In this document: positions 2,737 to 48,119 of the stretch, in pieces | Layout of the letters: every line of letters starts with the position of its first letter | How positions within the stretch are numbered: position 1 is the first letter of the stretch | NCBI GenBank assembly: GCA_902539825.1 | Contig: CACBMH010000004.1 | Span: 1 to 61,466, forward strand | Source: an uncultured Alphaproteobacteria bacterium | Lineage (GTDB): Bacteria > Pseudomonadota > Alphaproteobacteria > HIMB59 > GCA-002718135 | Length of the DNA: 61,466 nucleotides | Direction: 5' to 3' | Translations under genes and position numbers: made by a program | The notes under the pieces: generated by a model | Database searches by the model: none | The model's input: the letters and a program-made list of their open reading frames with translations, nothing else | What the model was told of the DNA's origin: nothing

Positions 2737-3609
2737 ATGTTTAGAGGAAGTATACCAGCAGTTATTACTCCATTTTCTGAAGACAAAGTTGATTATGACT
2801 CGTTAACAAAAGTTTTAACTCATTTAATTGATAATGGATCTCATGGACTAGTTCCTTGCGGAACAACTGGGGAATCACCAACTTTATCGCATGACGAACA
2901 TAAAAAAATAATTGAAGAAACGATTAGAGTTACAGATAAAAGAATTCCTGTTATAGCTGGTACCGGTTCAAACAATACTTTAGAAGCTATAGAATATACT
3001 GAACATGCTGAAAATTCTGGAGCAGATGCTGCTTTAATTGTAACACCATATTATAATAAACCAACTCAATCAGGTTTATATGAGCATTTTAGAGTTATAG
3101 CTGAAAAAACTAATATTCCGATAATTATTTATAATATACCTGGTAGATCAATCGTTGATATGTCTATTGAAACAATGATCGAATTATCAAAAATTAAAAA
3201 TATTATTGGGGTTAAGGATGCAACAAATGATTTATTTAGACCATTACTTACTAGAAAAAAAATGCAAAATGAATTTTGTTTTCTTTCTGGAGAAGATGGG
3301 ACAGCATTAGCATATTTAGCACAAGAAGGTCATGGATGTATATCAGTTACTGCTAATGTAGCACCAAAATTGTGTTCAGAAATGCATATTGCTTGGCAAG
3401 AGTCTAATATTTCCAAAGCTCAAGAAATTAATCTAAAATTATCATCTTTGCACAATGCTTTATTTATAGAATCAAGTCCTGGACCAGTTAAATATGCAGC
3501 TTCATTGTTGGGCTTATGTAATGAAAAAACAAGATTGCCCTTAACACAAATTAAAGATGATACAAAAAAAGCAGTCAAAAATTGCCTTCAAGAATTACAA
3601 CTACTATAA
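2737..3609 (+). CDS. dapA: 4-hydroxy-tetrahydrodipicolinate synthase
   Basis: MFRGSIPAVITPF, GTTGESPTL, YYNKPTQSGLYEHF, IIIYNIPGRS motifs. Confidence 0.97.
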   Translation: MFRGSIPAVITPFSEDKVDYDSLTKVLTHLIDNGSHGLVPCGTTGESPTLSHDEHKKIIEETIRVTDKRIPVIAGTGSNNTLEAIEYTEHAENSGADAALIVTPYYNKPTQSGLYEHFRVIAEKTNIPIIIYNIPGRSIVDMSIETMIELSKIKNIIGVKDATNDLFRPLLTRKKMQNEFCFLSGEDGTALAYLAQEGHGCISVTANVAPKLCSEMHIAWQESNISKAQEINLKLSSLHNALFIESSPGPVKYAASLLGLCNEKTRLPLTQIKDDTKKAVKNCLQELQLL

Positions 3610-4056
3610 ATGAAAATTATAGCCGCAAACAATAGGGCTAATTATAACTTTACAATATCAAATAAAATTGAAGCTGGTATTGTGTTAACTGGATCAGAGG
3701 TTAAATCTTTACGAATAAATACAGGCTCTATAAGAGGTTCATATATTATAGAACAAAATGGTGAACTATGGCTTTCAAATTCTTTTATAAAAAAATATCA
3801 AAATTCAAATGAGAACAACTATGATCCAACTAGAAAAAGAAAATTATTAGTTACAAAAAGAGAATTTGATAAAATATCAGGTTCTATTAAACAAGGTGGA
3901 TTTACAATAATTCCACTTTCTTTATATTTTTCAGATAAGGGTTTCGCAAAATTATCATGTGGAATTGCTAAAGGTAAGAAGAAAATTGATAAAAGAGAGT
4001 CAATAAAACAAAGAGATTGGAATATTAAAAAGCAAAGATTGCTTAAAAATAATTAA
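3610..4056 (+). CDS. smpB: SsrA-binding protein
   Basis: [29 protein letters not shown]-terminal [17 protein letters not shown]. Confidence 0.97.
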
Positions 4057-4093
4057 CTATTTACTTTTAAAAATTCATAACTATAAGCCCATT

Positions 4094-4513
4094 ATGGCAA
4101 GAATAACAGTTGAAGATTGTATTGATAAATTTCCAAGTAGGTTTGAGTTAGTTTTGGTAGCTTCAAATAGAGCCAGAAAATTATATTCTGGTGAAAATCC
4201 AACTGTAGAGATTGATAATGATAAAAATACCGTTATTGCACTTAGGGAAATAGCAGAAGAAACTCTTACAACAGAACAACTAAAAAATGATTTAATTGAA
4301 GAATATCAAACTAATACATTTAGTGAAGATGAAGAAATAAGTGAAATAGAAGATAATAGTGATGAAAGTGAAGCTGGTGATAACGAATTAAATAGCTCCG
4401 AAATTCAAGAAAATAATGAAGATCCTAATAATCACTCAGAAAACACTAATATTGAAACTGCGCAAGATAATTTAGAAAACTCATCAGATGATGAGAAAGT
4501 GCAGGATATATAA
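4094..4513 (+). CDS. rpoZ: DNA-directed RNA polymerase subunit omega with acidic C-terminal tail
   Basis: [30 protein letters not shown]; position between smpB and spoT. Confidence 0.95.
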
Positions 4514-4556
4514 TAAAACTAAACTATAATAAAAATAAATAATTTAAATATTATTT

Positions 4557-6680
4557 ATGACTTATAAAATTCATAAAGAGATAGAATTAATTACTTCGTA
4601 TCTTACTAATGAAGAAAAAGATAAAGTAAGACATGCGCTTAAATTGAGTGAACAAGCTCACAGTAATCAGCTAAGAAAATCTGGAGATCCTTTTATAACT
4701 CACCCACTAGAAGTAGCGAAAATTCTGACATCAATAAAATTAGATGCTGACTCAATAGTAGCAGGCTTACTTCATGATACTTTAGAAGATACAAGTTTAA
4801 ATATAGAAGAGATTAATAAAAATTTTGGAAAAGAAATTGTAGAGCTTGTAGATGGGTTAACAAAAATAAATAAATATTCTTTAAAGGTCAACAATCAAAA
4901 GTTTGGAGAGAATTATAAAAAATTAATTTTAGCAACAACAAAAGATTTAAGAGTAATTTTAGTAAAGTTAGCTGATAGATTACACAATATGAGAACAATT
5001 CAATTTATTAAAGACGAAAATAAAAAAACTAAAATAGCATTAGAAACACTTGAAGTATTTGCCCCCTTAGCTCAAAGATTAGGAATGAAGGAATGGCAAG
5101 ATGAATTAGAAGATATTTCATTTGAAATAATAAATCCTGATGCAAAAAAAACAATAATAGAAAGATTGGAATATTTAAAATCAAAGGATGACAATATTGT
5201 TGATGGAATAAGATATGAGTTAAAAAAAATTTTTTTTCAAGAAGATTTATTCTGTAAGGTAGAAGGTAGGATTAAGTCTCCATATTCAATATGGAATAAG
5301 ATTAAAAATAAAAATATTTCTTTCGATCAACTTTCTGATATTATGGCTTTTAGAGTTATTACTAATTCAACTAGAGAATGTTACAGATGCTTAGGAATTA
5401 TCCATAGGCAATATCCCTATATTCAGGGTCGATTTAAAGATTTTATTTCTGCACCAAAATCAAATGGGTACAGAGCTCTTCATACTTCAGTAATGGGACC
5501 AAAAAATAAAAAAATTGAAATACAATTTAGATCAAACATTATGGATCAAATTGCTGATTTTGGTATTGCGTCTCATTGGAAATATAAAGATCCGAAAAAA
5601 ATAAAAGAAAAAGACGCAAGAGAATATAAGTGGGTATATGATTTAGTAGATTCAATGAATTCTTCAGTTAATCAAGATGAATTAATTCAAAACTCAAAAT
5701 TAAAAGTATTTCAGAATGATATTTTTGTATTTACTCCAAAAGGAGATCTTATAGAATTACCTAAAAATGCAACTCCTGTAGATTTTGCATATGCAATACA
5801 TAGTCAGATAGGTGATAAATGTGTAGCAGCTAAAATTAATGATAAGCTGCAACCACTAAAAACAATTTTAAATAATGGCGATCAAATAGAAATTGTTACT
5901 TCGGAATCTTCACAGCCTTCGCCTCTTTGGCAGAGATTTGCAGTAACAACAAAGGTAAAATCACAACTAAGAAGATTTTTTAAATTTAAGAAGAGAGAAG
6001 AGCATATAATATTTGGTAGAGAAATATTAATAAATTATTTTCAAAAAGAAAATTACGAATTTAATAAAAATACTGAACAAAAAATATTGGATGATTATAA
6101 ATATAAATCAATAAACGATTTATATGCATTAATCGGATCAGGTGAAATTACAGCACTTTCTGTAATCAAAAAAATTTATCCTGAGTATAATTATATTCCA
6201 GTTTCAAAATTTAATGAAAATATCCAAAATCCTATAAAATTAAAGGGGTTGACAGCTGGAATGTCTTACCATCTCGCGGGTTGCTGCTCTCCTTTAAAAG
6301 GAGATAGTATAGTTGGAATAGTTACTGCAGGAATAGGTGTTGCCGTTCATACACTTGATTGTGAAACCCTTTCATCATATCAAGATGCACCTGATAGATG
6401 GTTAAATATTTCTTGGGATAATGACAATAATTTAGATACAATATCAAATGCTAGGATTGTTGTAGTATTATTTAATAAACCGGGAAGTCTTGGTAAAGTT
6501 ACAACAGTTATTGCAAAAAATAATGGAAATATTTCTAATATTCTTTTTTCAGTAAGGAAACCTGATTTTTTTGAGATTATAATAGACATTGAGGTTAGAG
6601 ACGCTAATCATTTACAAAATATAATTGCAGCATTAAGAATGGAAAAAGAAGTATCCTCTTTAGAGAGATTAAAAGGTTAA
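4557..6680 (+). CDS. spoT: RelA/SpoT bifunctional (p)ppGpp synthetase/hydrolase
   Basis: HD domain (GLLHDTLEDT), synthetase (RFKDFISAPKSNGYRALHTSV), TGS and ACT domains. Confidence 0.95.
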   Translation: MTYKIHKEIELITSYLTNEEKDKVRHALKLSEQAHSNQLRKSGDPFITHPLEVAKILTSIKLDADSIVAGLLHDTLEDTSLNIEEINKNFGKEIVELVDGLTKINKYSLKVNNQKFGENYKKLILATTKDLRVILVKLADRLHNMRTIQFIKDENKKTKIALETLEVFAPLAQRLGMKEWQDELEDISFEIINPDAKKTIIERLEYLKSKDDNIVDGIRYELKKIFFQEDLFCKVEGRIKSPYSIWNKIKNKNISFDQLSDIMAFRVITNSTRECYRCLGIIHRQYPYIQGRFKDFISAPKSNGYRALHTSVMGPKNKKIEIQFRSNIMDQIADFGIASHWKYKDPKKIKEKDAREYKWVYDLVDSMNSSVNQDELIQNSKLKVFQNDIFVFTPKGDLIELPKNATPVDFAYAIHSQIGDKCVAAKINDKLQPLKTILNNGDQIEIVTSESSQPSPLWQRFAVTTKVKSQLRRFFKFKKREEHIIFGREILINYFQKENYEFNKNTEQKILDDYKYKSINDLYALIGSGEITALSVIKKIYPEYNYIPVSKFNENIQNPIKLKGLTAGMSYHLAGCCSPLKGDSIVGIVTAGIGVAVHTLDCETLSSYQDAPDRWLNISWDNDNNLDTISNARIVVVLFNKPGSLGKVTTVIAKNNGNISNILFSVRKPDFFEIIIDIEVRDANHLQNIIAALRMEKEVSSLERLKG

Positions 6681-44586: not shown

Positions 44587-45570
44587 TTACGAGGCATTAA
44601 GCCACTCATCAATCCATTTTTCTTTATTCTTATTAATTTCTTTTGGATCCATTTGAATAAAGTTAGGAACATCTAGTTTATCAAATGCCTCAGGTAAATC
44701 TTTTATATTTGTAATTGGATACATAATATTTGTTGATGGTATTACTGATTGAAATTCTTCTGACAACATAAAGTTAAGAAATTTATTTGCTAAATCTTTA
44801 TTTTGTGAATTATTCAAAATACCTGCAAATTCAATTGTTATATAATTTCCTTCTTCAAAAGTTGTAGCAAGAATATCATACCTTTCTTCAAACATAATAT
44901 GTGCAGCTGGAGATGTAGTATAACTTAAAACCATGTCAGCTTCTCCTGCCATAAAAAAATTATAATATGCATCTGTCCATCCTTTGGTAACAGAAATAAT
45001 TTTCTTATTTAATTTTTTCCATTCATCTCCAGCTTTTTCTCCATATAATGCTTTCATCCAAGTTAATAATCCTAATCCAGGGGTAGAAGTTCTCGGGTCT
45101 TGAATTACAATTCTGGCATTAGTAGAATTAATCAACTCGTCCATTGATTTAGGAGGTGTTTCTAAATTTGCTTCATTATACACAAAAGAAAAGTATCCAT
45201 AATTATATGGAACAAATTTATTACTTTCCCAATTTAATGGTAAATTAATTAAGTTGTTTATGTCATCGATATTATGAGTTGTAAAAAGCCCAGATTGTTC
45301 AGCTAAATCAAATAAATTCATATCAAGACCTAAAACTATATCTGCCTTAGAAGTATCACCTTCTAAAATAACTTTATTCAATAATGTTGCGGCACTGTCT
45401 ACAGCAACAAATTCTACATCTGCATTATGTTTTTCTTCAAATATTTTTTCAATTATGGGTCCTGGACCCCACTCTGAAACAAAAGAGTCGTAAGTATATA
45501 TAGTTAGTTTCTCTGCATAGATTGTGAAAGAGATAAATAAGGTAGTTAAAAAAATTAGTATTGTTTTCAT
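44587..45570 (-). CDS. thiB: Thiamine ABC transporter substrate-binding protein
   Basis: EKLTIYTYDSFVSEWGPGPIIEKIFEEKHNADVEFVAVDSAATLLNKVILEG; DPRTSTPGLGLLTWM; preceded by TPP riboswitch. Confidence 0.95.
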   Translation of the reverse strand: MKTILIFLTTLFISFTIYAEKLTIYTYDSFVSEWGPGPIIEKIFEEKHNADVEFVAVDSAATLLNKVILEGDTSKADIVLGLDMNLFDLAEQSGLFTTHNIDDINNLINLPLNWESNKFVPYNYGYFSFVYNEANLETPPKSMDELINSTNARIVIQDPRTSTPGLGLLTWMKALYGEKAGDEWKKLNKKIISVTKGWTDAYYNFFMAGEADMVLSYTTSPAAHIMFEERYDILATTFEEGNYITIEFAGILNNSQNKDLANKFLNFMLSEEFQSVIPSTNIMYPITNIKDLPEAFDKLDVPNFIQMDPKEINKNKEKWIDEWLNAS

Positions 45571-45572
45571 GT

Positions 45573-45638
45573 TTCCTCCGCTGGCATTATCCAGATCAGG
45601 TTAAAAGGGTATAAATCTCAGCATTTAAGCACCCCTAT
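45573..45638 (-). promoter_or_regulatory. TPP (THI-element) riboswitch upstream of thiB
   Basis: Reverse strand AGGGGTGCTTAAATGCTGAGATTTATACCCTTTTAACCTGATCTGGATAATGCCAGCGGAGGAAAC, matching conserved CTGAGA/ACCC/ACCTGATCTGGATAATGCCAGCG. Confidence 0.96.
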
Positions 45639-45719
45639 TTTTAATTATAATAAATATTATTTTAGAAAACAAACATAAAAGATTGTTTTTAGGTTATTTA
45701 TGAATATAACAAATTTTTT

Positions 45720-45796
45720 CGGGGAGTAGCGCAGCCTGGTAGCGCACCTGGTTTGGGACCAGGGGGTCGAAGGTTCGAATCCTTTCTCCCCGACCA
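45720..45796 (+). tRNA. tRNA-Pro (TGG)
   Basis: CGGGGAG/CTCCCCG acceptor, anticodon loop TTTGGGA, GGTTCGAATCC, CCA. Confidence 0.96.
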
Positions 45797-45921
45797 TATA
45801 TTCAGCCAATTTTTATATCTGTAATATTGTACTTTTAAATTTCTAAAGCTATTTATTATACCAAGTTATTAATTTTAAACACCTGTCTTCACACAAGGTG
45901 GTTTTGTGTTATAAAACAAAT

Positions 45922-46938
45922 ATGCCTCAGATAAAAGTTAATGATAAAATATATTATTTAACTGATTTTGCAAACGAAGAAGAGTTAGAAGATAATCTTG
46001 AAAAGCTATCAAATGATATTTTTGGTCCAGGTAAAATTTTTTTAAGATTTAAAAAAAGAATTGGAATTTCTACAAAAACTATTCCTGATGGATATCTTTT
46101 AGATTTATCTTCTAAAAAACCTGAACTATATTTTGTTGAGTCAGAATTAGATACTCATGATGTTGTAAGGCATATTTCAGTTCAGTTAATGAATTTTTAT
46201 TTCTCATATAATGAAGATCATACCGGTTTGCGCAATATTTTAAGTGAACAAATTAATAATGATCAATTTAAAAAGAAAAAATGTGATGAATATGTAAGTT
46301 CAAATAATTATTCTAGCTTTGATAAATTTATTGATGAAGTAACAAGAAATTCAGCATTCAAATCTATTGTTGTTATAAATGAAGAACCAGAAAAACTTTC
46401 AAAGCTTGATAGTATAGTCAAATTTGATGTTGAGGTTTTATGTATTAGAAAATACGAGTCCTCTGATGGAGATCAAATTTTTGAGTATGATACTTTTCAA
46501 GACAATATTTTAACAGAAACTTCTTCTGAAAATTCTAAATCAATGAAATTGGTTGATAAAAGTACTTTTGATACAATCGTAGTTCCAGCAAGGAAGGAAG
46601 GTTTTGATAAAGTTTTTATTGGTGAAGACAGATGGTATGCAATTAAATTTTCAGAAGCTATGCAAAAACAAATCAAATATATAGCTGGATATCAAGTTAA
46701 ACCAATATCAAAAATTACTCATATTGCAGAAATAAAAGATGTAGTTCCATACGAAGGCAATATTGAATCTTATGAAGGAAAATTTGTAATTAATTTCAAA
46801 GCTTCTGCAAAAAAATTAAATAACCCAATTGAATACAACCCATCAGGTAAAATAAAACCTCTATACGGTCCAATATTTGCAAAATATTCAAAATTAATCG
46901 AATCAAAAAATTTTGATGATCTTTGGTATGAAGAATAA
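45922..46938 (+). CDS. Uncharacterised protein; candidate PD-(D/E)XK nuclease-like N-terminal region plus possible PUA/EVE-like C-terminal domain
   Basis: PDGYLLDLSSKKPELYFVESELDTHDVVRHISVQL (D...ExE...Q pattern); C-terminal YIAGYQVKPISKITHIAEIKDVVPYEG...KFVINFKASAKKL; start refined to ATG 45922 (ORF track uses GTG 45898). Confidence 0.55.
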   Translation: MPQIKVNDKIYYLTDFANEEELEDNLEKLSNDIFGPGKIFLRFKKRIGISTKTIPDGYLLDLSSKKPELYFVESELDTHDVVRHISVQLMNFYFSYNEDHTGLRNILSEQINNDQFKKKKCDEYVSSNNYSSFDKFIDEVTRNSAFKSIVVINEEPEKLSKLDSIVKFDVEVLCIRKYESSDGDQIFEYDTFQDNILTETSSENSKSMKLVDKSTFDTIVVPARKEGFDKVFIGEDRWYAIKFSEAMQKQIKYIAGYQVKPISKITHIAEIKDVVPYEGNIESYEGKFVINFKASAKKLNNPIEYNPSGKIKPLYGPIFAKYSKLIESKNFDDLWYEE

Positions 46939-46958
46939 ATGATTATATCAGACATTTT

Positions 46959-48119
46959 TTGATGTTTAATTACTTCTCTAATGCAGAACTAATTTTTGGT
47001 AATGATACTTCTGTTAATGCACATGATCAGATAATTAATATACTAGGTAAAAATATATTTGTTGTTACTGATAAAGGTTTGACTGAATTAGGTTTGTTCG
47101 AACCTGTCGTTAATAAACTAAAAAAAAATTCAAATATAAAAATATTTAATGATGTAGAGTCTGATCCATCAAAAAATACATTGCTTGAGGCATACAAAAA
47201 AGCATCTAGCTTTAAATCTTCTGGTGTTTTAGGTTTTGGAGGCGGTTCATCTATGGATGTTGCAAAACTTGTATCTTTACTTCTTGGGTCTAATCAGAAT
47301 ATCGATACGATATGGGGGGTTAATAATGCAAAAGGCCCAAGAATACCACTTGTACTAATTCCTACAACAGCAGGAACTGGTTCAGAAGTTACGCCAATTT
47401 CAATAATTACGATGGATGACAAAGAAAAAAAAGGTGTTTCTTCAAAACTTATTTTACCTGATCTTGCTATTTTAGATCCATTATTAACTATTAATCTACC
47501 TCCAAATATAACTGCATCAACCGGAATAGATGCTATGGTTCATGCAATCGAAGCTTACACTTCTATAAATCCTAACAACAATCCTATTTCAAAAATGTTA
47601 TCTATAGAAGCACTCAAGTTTCTCGGATCATCAATTAAAACTGCTGTATTTGATGGACATAATATAATTGCAAGATCAAATATGCTATTTGGATCAATGT
47701 TAGCAGGTAAAGCTTTTGCAAATTCTCCAGTAGCAGCAGTACATGCTTTGGCATATCCCATAGGAGGTCTATTTAATATATCTCATGGACTTTCAAACTC
47801 TTTAGTTCTTCCAAGTGTTATGAAATTCAATTCTATACATAAAGAAACAAAAAAAAATTACGCTAATCTTGCACCATTTGTATTTAAAGATTTAGATAAT
47901 AGCAAAAGTGATGAGATTGTGTGTAATAATTTTATAGATAGTTTAGAAAGTTTGTCTAAGGAACTGAAATTACCTTATAGGCTAAGAGATCTAGAAATTC
48001 CTGAGAAAGCTTGCCAATTGATGGCTAGTGAAGCAATGAAGCAAACAAGATTATTAGTAAATAACCCGCGTAAAATTGAAGAATCTGATGCCTTTAATAT
48101 ATACAAATCTGTTTGGTAG
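46959..48119 (+). CDS. Iron-containing alcohol dehydrogenase
   Basis: GVLGFGGGSSMDVAKLVSLL; IPTTAGTGSEVTPISII; STGIDAMVHAIEAY; HALAYPIGGLFNISHGLSNSLVLP. Confidence 0.95.
   Translation: MMFNYFSNAELIFGNDTSVNAHDQIINILGKNIFVVTDKGLTELGLFEPVVNKLKKNSNIKIFNDVESDPSKNTLLEAYKKASSFKSSGVLGFGGGSSMDVAKLVSLLLGSNQNIDTIWGVNNAKGPRIPLVLIPTTAGTGSEVTPISIITMDDKEKKGVSSKLILPDLAILDPLLTINLPPNITASTGIDAMVHAIEAYTSINPNNNPISKMLSIEALKFLGSSIKTAVFDGHNIIARSNMLFGSMLAGKAFANSPVAAVHALAYPIGGLFNISHGLSNSLVLPSVMKFNSIHKETKKNYANLAPFVFKDLDNSKSDEIVCNNFIDSLESLSKELKLPYRLRDLEIPEKACQLMASEAMKQTRLLVNNPRKIEESDAFNIYKSVW

Follow-up and report, generated by a model that had tools for sequence, protein, structure and literature searches.

A solitary gene at a variable tRNA-Pro site encodes a candidate modification-dependent nuclease with a PUA/ASCH-like domain

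What is the role of a 338-residue protein neither domain of which has a sequence match in Pfam, NCBIfam, PADLOC or the PDB, and how did its gene come to lie just downstream of a tRNA gene? The gene occurs in a 61,466-nucleotide stretch (the window) of contig CACBMH010000004.1 from an uncultured alphaproteobacterium. A first-pass annotation, made by eye, had described a possible PD-(D/E)XK nuclease joined to a small PUA/EVE/ASCH-type barrel. The features that concern us here are the following:

45720..45796, plus strand: tRNA-Pro(TGG), the insertion site (ARAGORN and Rfam)
45797..46961, plus strand: accessory segment from the tRNA end to the ADH start codon, 1,165 nt (7-8 nt in relatives with an empty site)
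45891..45909, no strand: ACACAA-N7-TTGTGT inverted repeat, operator role not supported
45922..46938, plus strand: coding sequence, 338 aa, for a PD-(D/E)XK-like nuclease domain and a PUA/ASCH-like domain
45922..46506, plus strand: N-terminal PD-(D/E)XK-like domain, aa 1-195 (homologues and model)
46078..46185, plus strand: putative active-site stretch, aa 53-88, TIPD56G...E73-x-E75-L...H79...H84...Q88 (invariance)
46507..46560, plus strand: linker, aa 196-213 (residues 193-214 have pLDDT below 50)
46561..46935, plus strand: C-terminal PUA/ASCH-like domain, aa 214-338 (C-termini of GIY-YIG proteins; ASCH/YTH fold matches)

An accessory gene at a variable tRNA-Pro site

The open reading frame described earlier is present, and the N- and C-terminal sequences quoted for it are exact. 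Of two candidate starts, the ATG at 45922 (338 aa) and the GTG at 45898 (346 aa, the one in the ORF tool listing), the ATG agrees better with where the homologues begin, and the tRNA-Pro ends 125 nt upstream of this ATG, the spacing given before. Two PHROG and two PDB sequence matches of the whole protein are at chance level, and phmmer and hmmsearch against PDB sequences returned chance matches only for each half. A second, intact copy is found in a sibling genome of the same genus (G044, locus L001), with a protein 97% identical to that of the window. Comparison of the two copies gives dN 0.012 and dS 0.086 (dN/dS about 0.14), with constraint on both halves. Hence, the gene is real, under purifying selection and functional in both host genomes.

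The ACACAA-N7-TTGTGT palindrome in the leader had been put forward as a small operator. It is indeed there, yet 60% of dinucleotide shuffles of the 125-nt leader equal it, containing at least one inverted repeat of the same class (6-bp arms, 3-12-nt loop). As the repeat is no more than would arise by chance, we rejected an operator at 45891-45909.

DNA conservation with about 40 relatives from the genus continues up to the 3' end of the tRNA-Pro, where the sequences begin to diverge. In a set of 101 genomes from relatives, some of them incomplete and the window's own about 61% complete, the gene has a match in two, the window's genome and its sibling. The tRNA-Pro/ADH junction is readable in 42 genomes, of which 13 have an empty site with the ADH start codon within about 8 nt of the tRNA end (junction sequences displayed for 6 of these 13). 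Another 13 carry a 230-aa glutathione-S-transferase-like gene instead (e.g., L021 and L046). In one genome (G009; L067, G009:C1:238016-243432), the final 45 bp of the tRNA recur at the far side of a 1.2-kb insert, and such a duplication of the tRNA 3' end is what site-specific integration would leave behind. Two proteins are encoded on this insert, one of 146 aa that is probably secreted and a small one of 74 aa. The remaining junctions are divergent, SulP following directly in three.

Empty sites in some relatives and other genes in the same place in others identify the 1,165-nt segment as accessory DNA inserted at a tRNA site whose contents vary, as the first-pass annotation had suspected from the position of the gene. 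A housekeeping role was rejected, since 99 of the 101 genomes have no match and the empty site is seen directly in 13 relatives. At the window's own insertion, no tRNA repeat or integrase was found. In some relatives the ADH gene itself is absent from the junction, and this absence, like the presence of the glutathione-S-transferase-like gene, points to a small hotspot of gene exchange.

The neighbors, identified from translations read by eye, are the tRNA-Pro, a thiamine-type ABC transporter, an iron-type ADH and SulP, so that, in agreement with the earlier description, no partner methyltransferase lies alongside. A TPP riboswitch on the minus strand (45556-45646; Rfam RF00059, 65 bits) precedes the minus-strand genes of the thiamine-type ABC transporter, which points to uptake of thiamine or a thiamine precursor.

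Relatives of the two halves

The N-terminal domain shares 35-40% identity over about 90-100 aa (E 2e-16 and 2e-11) with proteins from two other classes, probably Zeta- and Gammaproteobacteria, each represented by two genomes (L033 and L034 in one class, L041 and L042 in the other). The homology is clearest over aa 4-101. Beyond it, these relatives carry C-terminal domains of other kinds: L033 ends in DUF5655 (E 2.4e-6) and L034 in RAMA (Pfam E 1.2e-19), each scoring above the Pfam cut-offs, and L041 and L042 resemble L033. The RAMA-bearing C-terminus of L034 matches PADLOC PDC-S14 and the DUF5655-bearing one of L033 matches PDC-S18. The N-terminal family is rare, with six sequences from about three independent lineages, and neither the viral-contig scans nor phage and plasmid tblastn returned a relative of this half. 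A further weak match (L043) lies inside a frame with a stop and was discarded as chance or a remnant. The N-terminal homologues are likewise solitary genes, lying between housekeeping genes in most loci, and no methyltransferase was recognized by eye beside them.

The C-terminal 120 aa have 41-43% identity (E 1e-25 to 1e-29) to the C-terminal ends of GIY-YIG proteins encoded by other Proteobacteria, by two plasmids (one cyanobacterial, one of Magnetococcus) and by a phage-like contig. The two plasmid proteins were those returned by the phage and plasmid tblastn, and the phage-like contig was the one with a GIY-YIG version in the viral-contig scans. All ten C-terminal relatives start with a GIY-YIG-type domain or its remains, a call based on Pfam matches below the threshold, PADLOC PDC-S14 (three tested), alignment with the rest and, for the plasmid pair, NCBI annotation; in the three tested, the N-terminus matches PDC-S14 with E 1e-37 to 1e-57. 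On the phage-like contig (L037, IMGVR_UViG_3300043451_000318, 2872-5348), the GIY-YIG and PUA/ASCH-like gene adjoins an opposite-strand gene for a ParB-like/N6-adenine methyltransferase.

Judged by sequence, then, the window protein consists of two modules that are otherwise found with different partners. N-terminal relatives are joined to RAMA or DUF5655 and C-terminal relatives to GIY-YIG, and the window protein pairs a cutter of the first kind with a C-terminal domain of the second; no cross-match was found between the swapped halves. The matches to PDC-S14 and PDC-S18, which are computational candidates in PADLOC, place the relatives among predicted phage-defense systems.

Predicted fold and putative active site

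An AlphaFold2 model built from a 13-row alignment reached pLDDT 76.7 and pTM 0.56, while a single-sequence run (pLDDT 32) was uninformative; mixed fragment alignments, in which N-terminal rows were misaligned, were left out. In the model, the N-terminus follows the alpha-beta-beta-beta-alpha-beta core order of PD-(D/E)XK enzymes: helix 19-34, strands 38-41, 57-61 and 68-75, helix 81-98, strand 147-152, helix 156-165 and strand 170-179. D56 sits just before strand 57-61, E73 and E75 end strand 68-75, and Q88 lies in helix 81-98. The six N-terminal sequences share invariant N18, E19, L22, E23, IFG, TIPDG, D61, E73-x-E75-L, H79, H84 and Q88. The conservation check proposed with the by-eye assignment thus turned out in its favor, with no variation at D56, E73, E75 or Q88 among the family members found, and the predicted secondary-structure order likewise supports a PD-(D/E)XK-like fold.

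In terms of the D...(D/E)-x-K motif, D56, E73 and Q88 are invariant and the Lys position is occupied by Glu75 in every member found. BamHI has an ExE motif and is an active enzyme; by this analogy, nuclease activity of the window protein is plausible.

Foldseek against viral models places phage G gp54 first (E 4e-7), followed by several annotated PD-(D/E)XK proteins, and FokI is a weak fold match in the PDB. The motif of phage G gp54 is a classical EIK, and the protein matches NucS_C weakly; hhalign of the N-terminus with it aligned the motif with a score that is not significant. The window protein thus resembles gp54 and the NucS_C/DUF91-type nucleases in core order and in the position of D...E-x-(K/E), but differs from them in having no significant sequence similarity, an ExE in place of an ExK, and a gene that is a rare accessory rather than one for a replication or repair protein. 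The gp54 gene itself (Bacillus phage G, L085:36933-37820) has no stated function; its product resembles a NucS_C/DUF91-type PD-(D/E)XK nuclease, possibly with a DUF5655-like C-terminus (by eye).

Beyond the linker, the predicted C-terminal elements (strand 218-223, helix 225-234, and strands 237-242, 253-259, 262-276, 287-292 and 297-304) have the PUA-superfamily layout of a pseudo-barrel of five to six strands, the first of which leads into a helix. When the whole model was compared with solved structures, Foldseek gave as its best matches ASCH (probability 1.00, E 5e-3 to 1e-2), a 145-residue NMR structure (2gbs) and YTH (probability 0.77). These matches are modest, with a best E of 5e-3 and a TM of about 0.5 to the target. 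Foldseek prints no query ranges; given the known fold of ASCH and YTH domains, we infer that the matches align to the C-terminal half. The domain would therefore belong to the PUA superfamily by fold, at modest significance. The by-eye PUA/EVE/ASCH-type assignment agrees with this at the level of fold, with ASCH and YTH as the best solved matches; sequence profiles lend it no support, as the domain has no Pfam ASCH or EVE match and no EVE profile match, and its hhalign comparison with an EVE protein of the host was not significant. That host protein is encoded by a stand-alone EVE-domain gene (G000:C33:2480-2872), which is conserved in most relatives and is probably a housekeeping gene.

A candidate reader-guided nuclease and its alternatives

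We read the protein as a solitary modification-dependent (type IV-like) PD-(D/E)XK nuclease with a PUA/ASCH-like reader, horizontally acquired, and put the probability of this reading at roughly 0.6. In described modification-dependent enzymes, readers that can replace one another are attached to nucleases of the PD-(D/E)XK, HNH, GIY-YIG or PLD type, those of the PUA superfamily taking the flipped modified base into a pocket, and GIY-YIG-RAMA fusions have been noted as possible readers (PMC11037411). EVE domains are also fused to both PD-(D/E)XK and GIY-YIG (PMC7641849). By analogy with the base-flipping readers, the barrel would most likely bind a modified base and so guide the nuclease to DNA of foreign origin, probably that of phages. 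Cutting would fall to the PD-(D/E)XK-type domain (D56...E73-x-E75, with Glu for the usual Lys, and the helix residue Q88), tethered to the barrel by a flexible linker. Such a one-gene restriction enzyme would not need a partner methyltransferase. The lack of one next to the gene and, as read by eye, next to its N-terminal homologues agrees with modification-dependent reading, because an enzyme cutting unmodified sites would depend on such a partner. The analysis shows the pair of domains, the conserved acidic and Gln residues, the modules shared crosswise with other nuclease-reader pairs and the insertion at the tRNA-Pro; catalysis, a DNA target, dependence on modification and an antiphage role are what we infer of the protein.

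The methylation of the hosts may bear on the likely target. In 19 of 21 genomes that host the relatives, there is a PF01555 match, a long N6/N4 methyltransferase that probably resembles CcrM, judging by its length and family. The window genome, about 61% complete, yielded no such enzyme. A reader of m6A in the context of a CcrM-like enzyme would be toxic to such cells. The target would thus more likely be cytosine or hypermodified bases, or else m6A outside that context.

The same methyltransferases bear on an alternative that we consider unlikely, in which the protein is a modification-independent DNA endonuclease, defensive or selfish, whose C-terminal domain serves only to recognize a sequence or a structure. 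Hosts with a CcrM-like enzyme (PF01555 in 19 of 21) could suffer from a general m6A reader, and base reading by the barrel is itself an analogy, both of which fit this alternative; but with no protective methyltransferase adjoining the gene such a cutter would attack its own chromosome, and the partner domains of the relatives are mostly of the reader type. A little less probable still is an RNA-directed nuclease, e.g., an abortive-infection or toxin-like enzyme, whose barrel reads RNA or a modified RNA nucleotide. RNA is a frequent ligand of PUA and ASCH domains, and the YTH structures among the fold matches include complexes with m6A RNA. However, DNA is the usual substrate of PD-(D/E)XK domains. 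The partner domains of the relatives (RAMA, GIY-YIG and DUF5655), moreover, are tied to DNA modification and phage defense in the literature or in PADLOC (PMC11037411). A dead or repurposed nuclease fold acting in binding or regulation, suggested by the Glu that replaces the catalytic Lys throughout the family, is very improbable given that the other acidic and Gln residues are invariant across different fusions and that BamHI cuts with the same motif.

Among described proteins, the proposed nuclease-reader is close in design to type IV fusions (DpnI-like PD-(D/E)XK-wH, EVE-PD-(D/E)XK and GIY-YIG-RAMA), which follow the same logic of a nuclease and a modified-base reader without a partner methyltransferase. 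In the window protein, however, the reader is putative, and both the nuclease and the PUA/ASCH-like domain lack a Pfam family. PDC-S14, a GIY-YIG nuclease with a RAMA-type C-terminus in some profiles, is likewise a single-gene nuclease of about 300 aa with a C-terminal reader, and some proteins whose N-terminus matches it carry the C-terminal domain of the window protein; the nuclease half of the window protein, in contrast, shares no sequence with GIY-YIG, and the protein has no PADLOC match. The nuclease-reader design is known, but neither of the two domain families, nor their pairing, seems to have been described in the libraries and papers covered, which lie mostly outside preprints and subscription papers.

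We also consider, more tentatively than the nuclease-reader interpretation itself, that the undescribed ExE PD-(D/E)XK family is a plug-in cutter whose sensors are interchangeable and number at least three (RAMA, DUF5655 and the new PUA/ASCH-like domain), the last of which, common to GIY-YIG defense candidates, may read a DNA modification outside the range of known readers. Phages carry many DNA modifications, and streamlined marine bacteria have few recognized defense genes. As Pfam covers neither half, the annotation of such proteins reads hypothetical, or GIY-YIG and no more. If the proposal is true, the modules would form a defined set (two nuclease types and at least three C-terminal domains) for testing reader specificity, and a new reader domain common to GIY-YIG defense candidates would widen the set of modification sensors.
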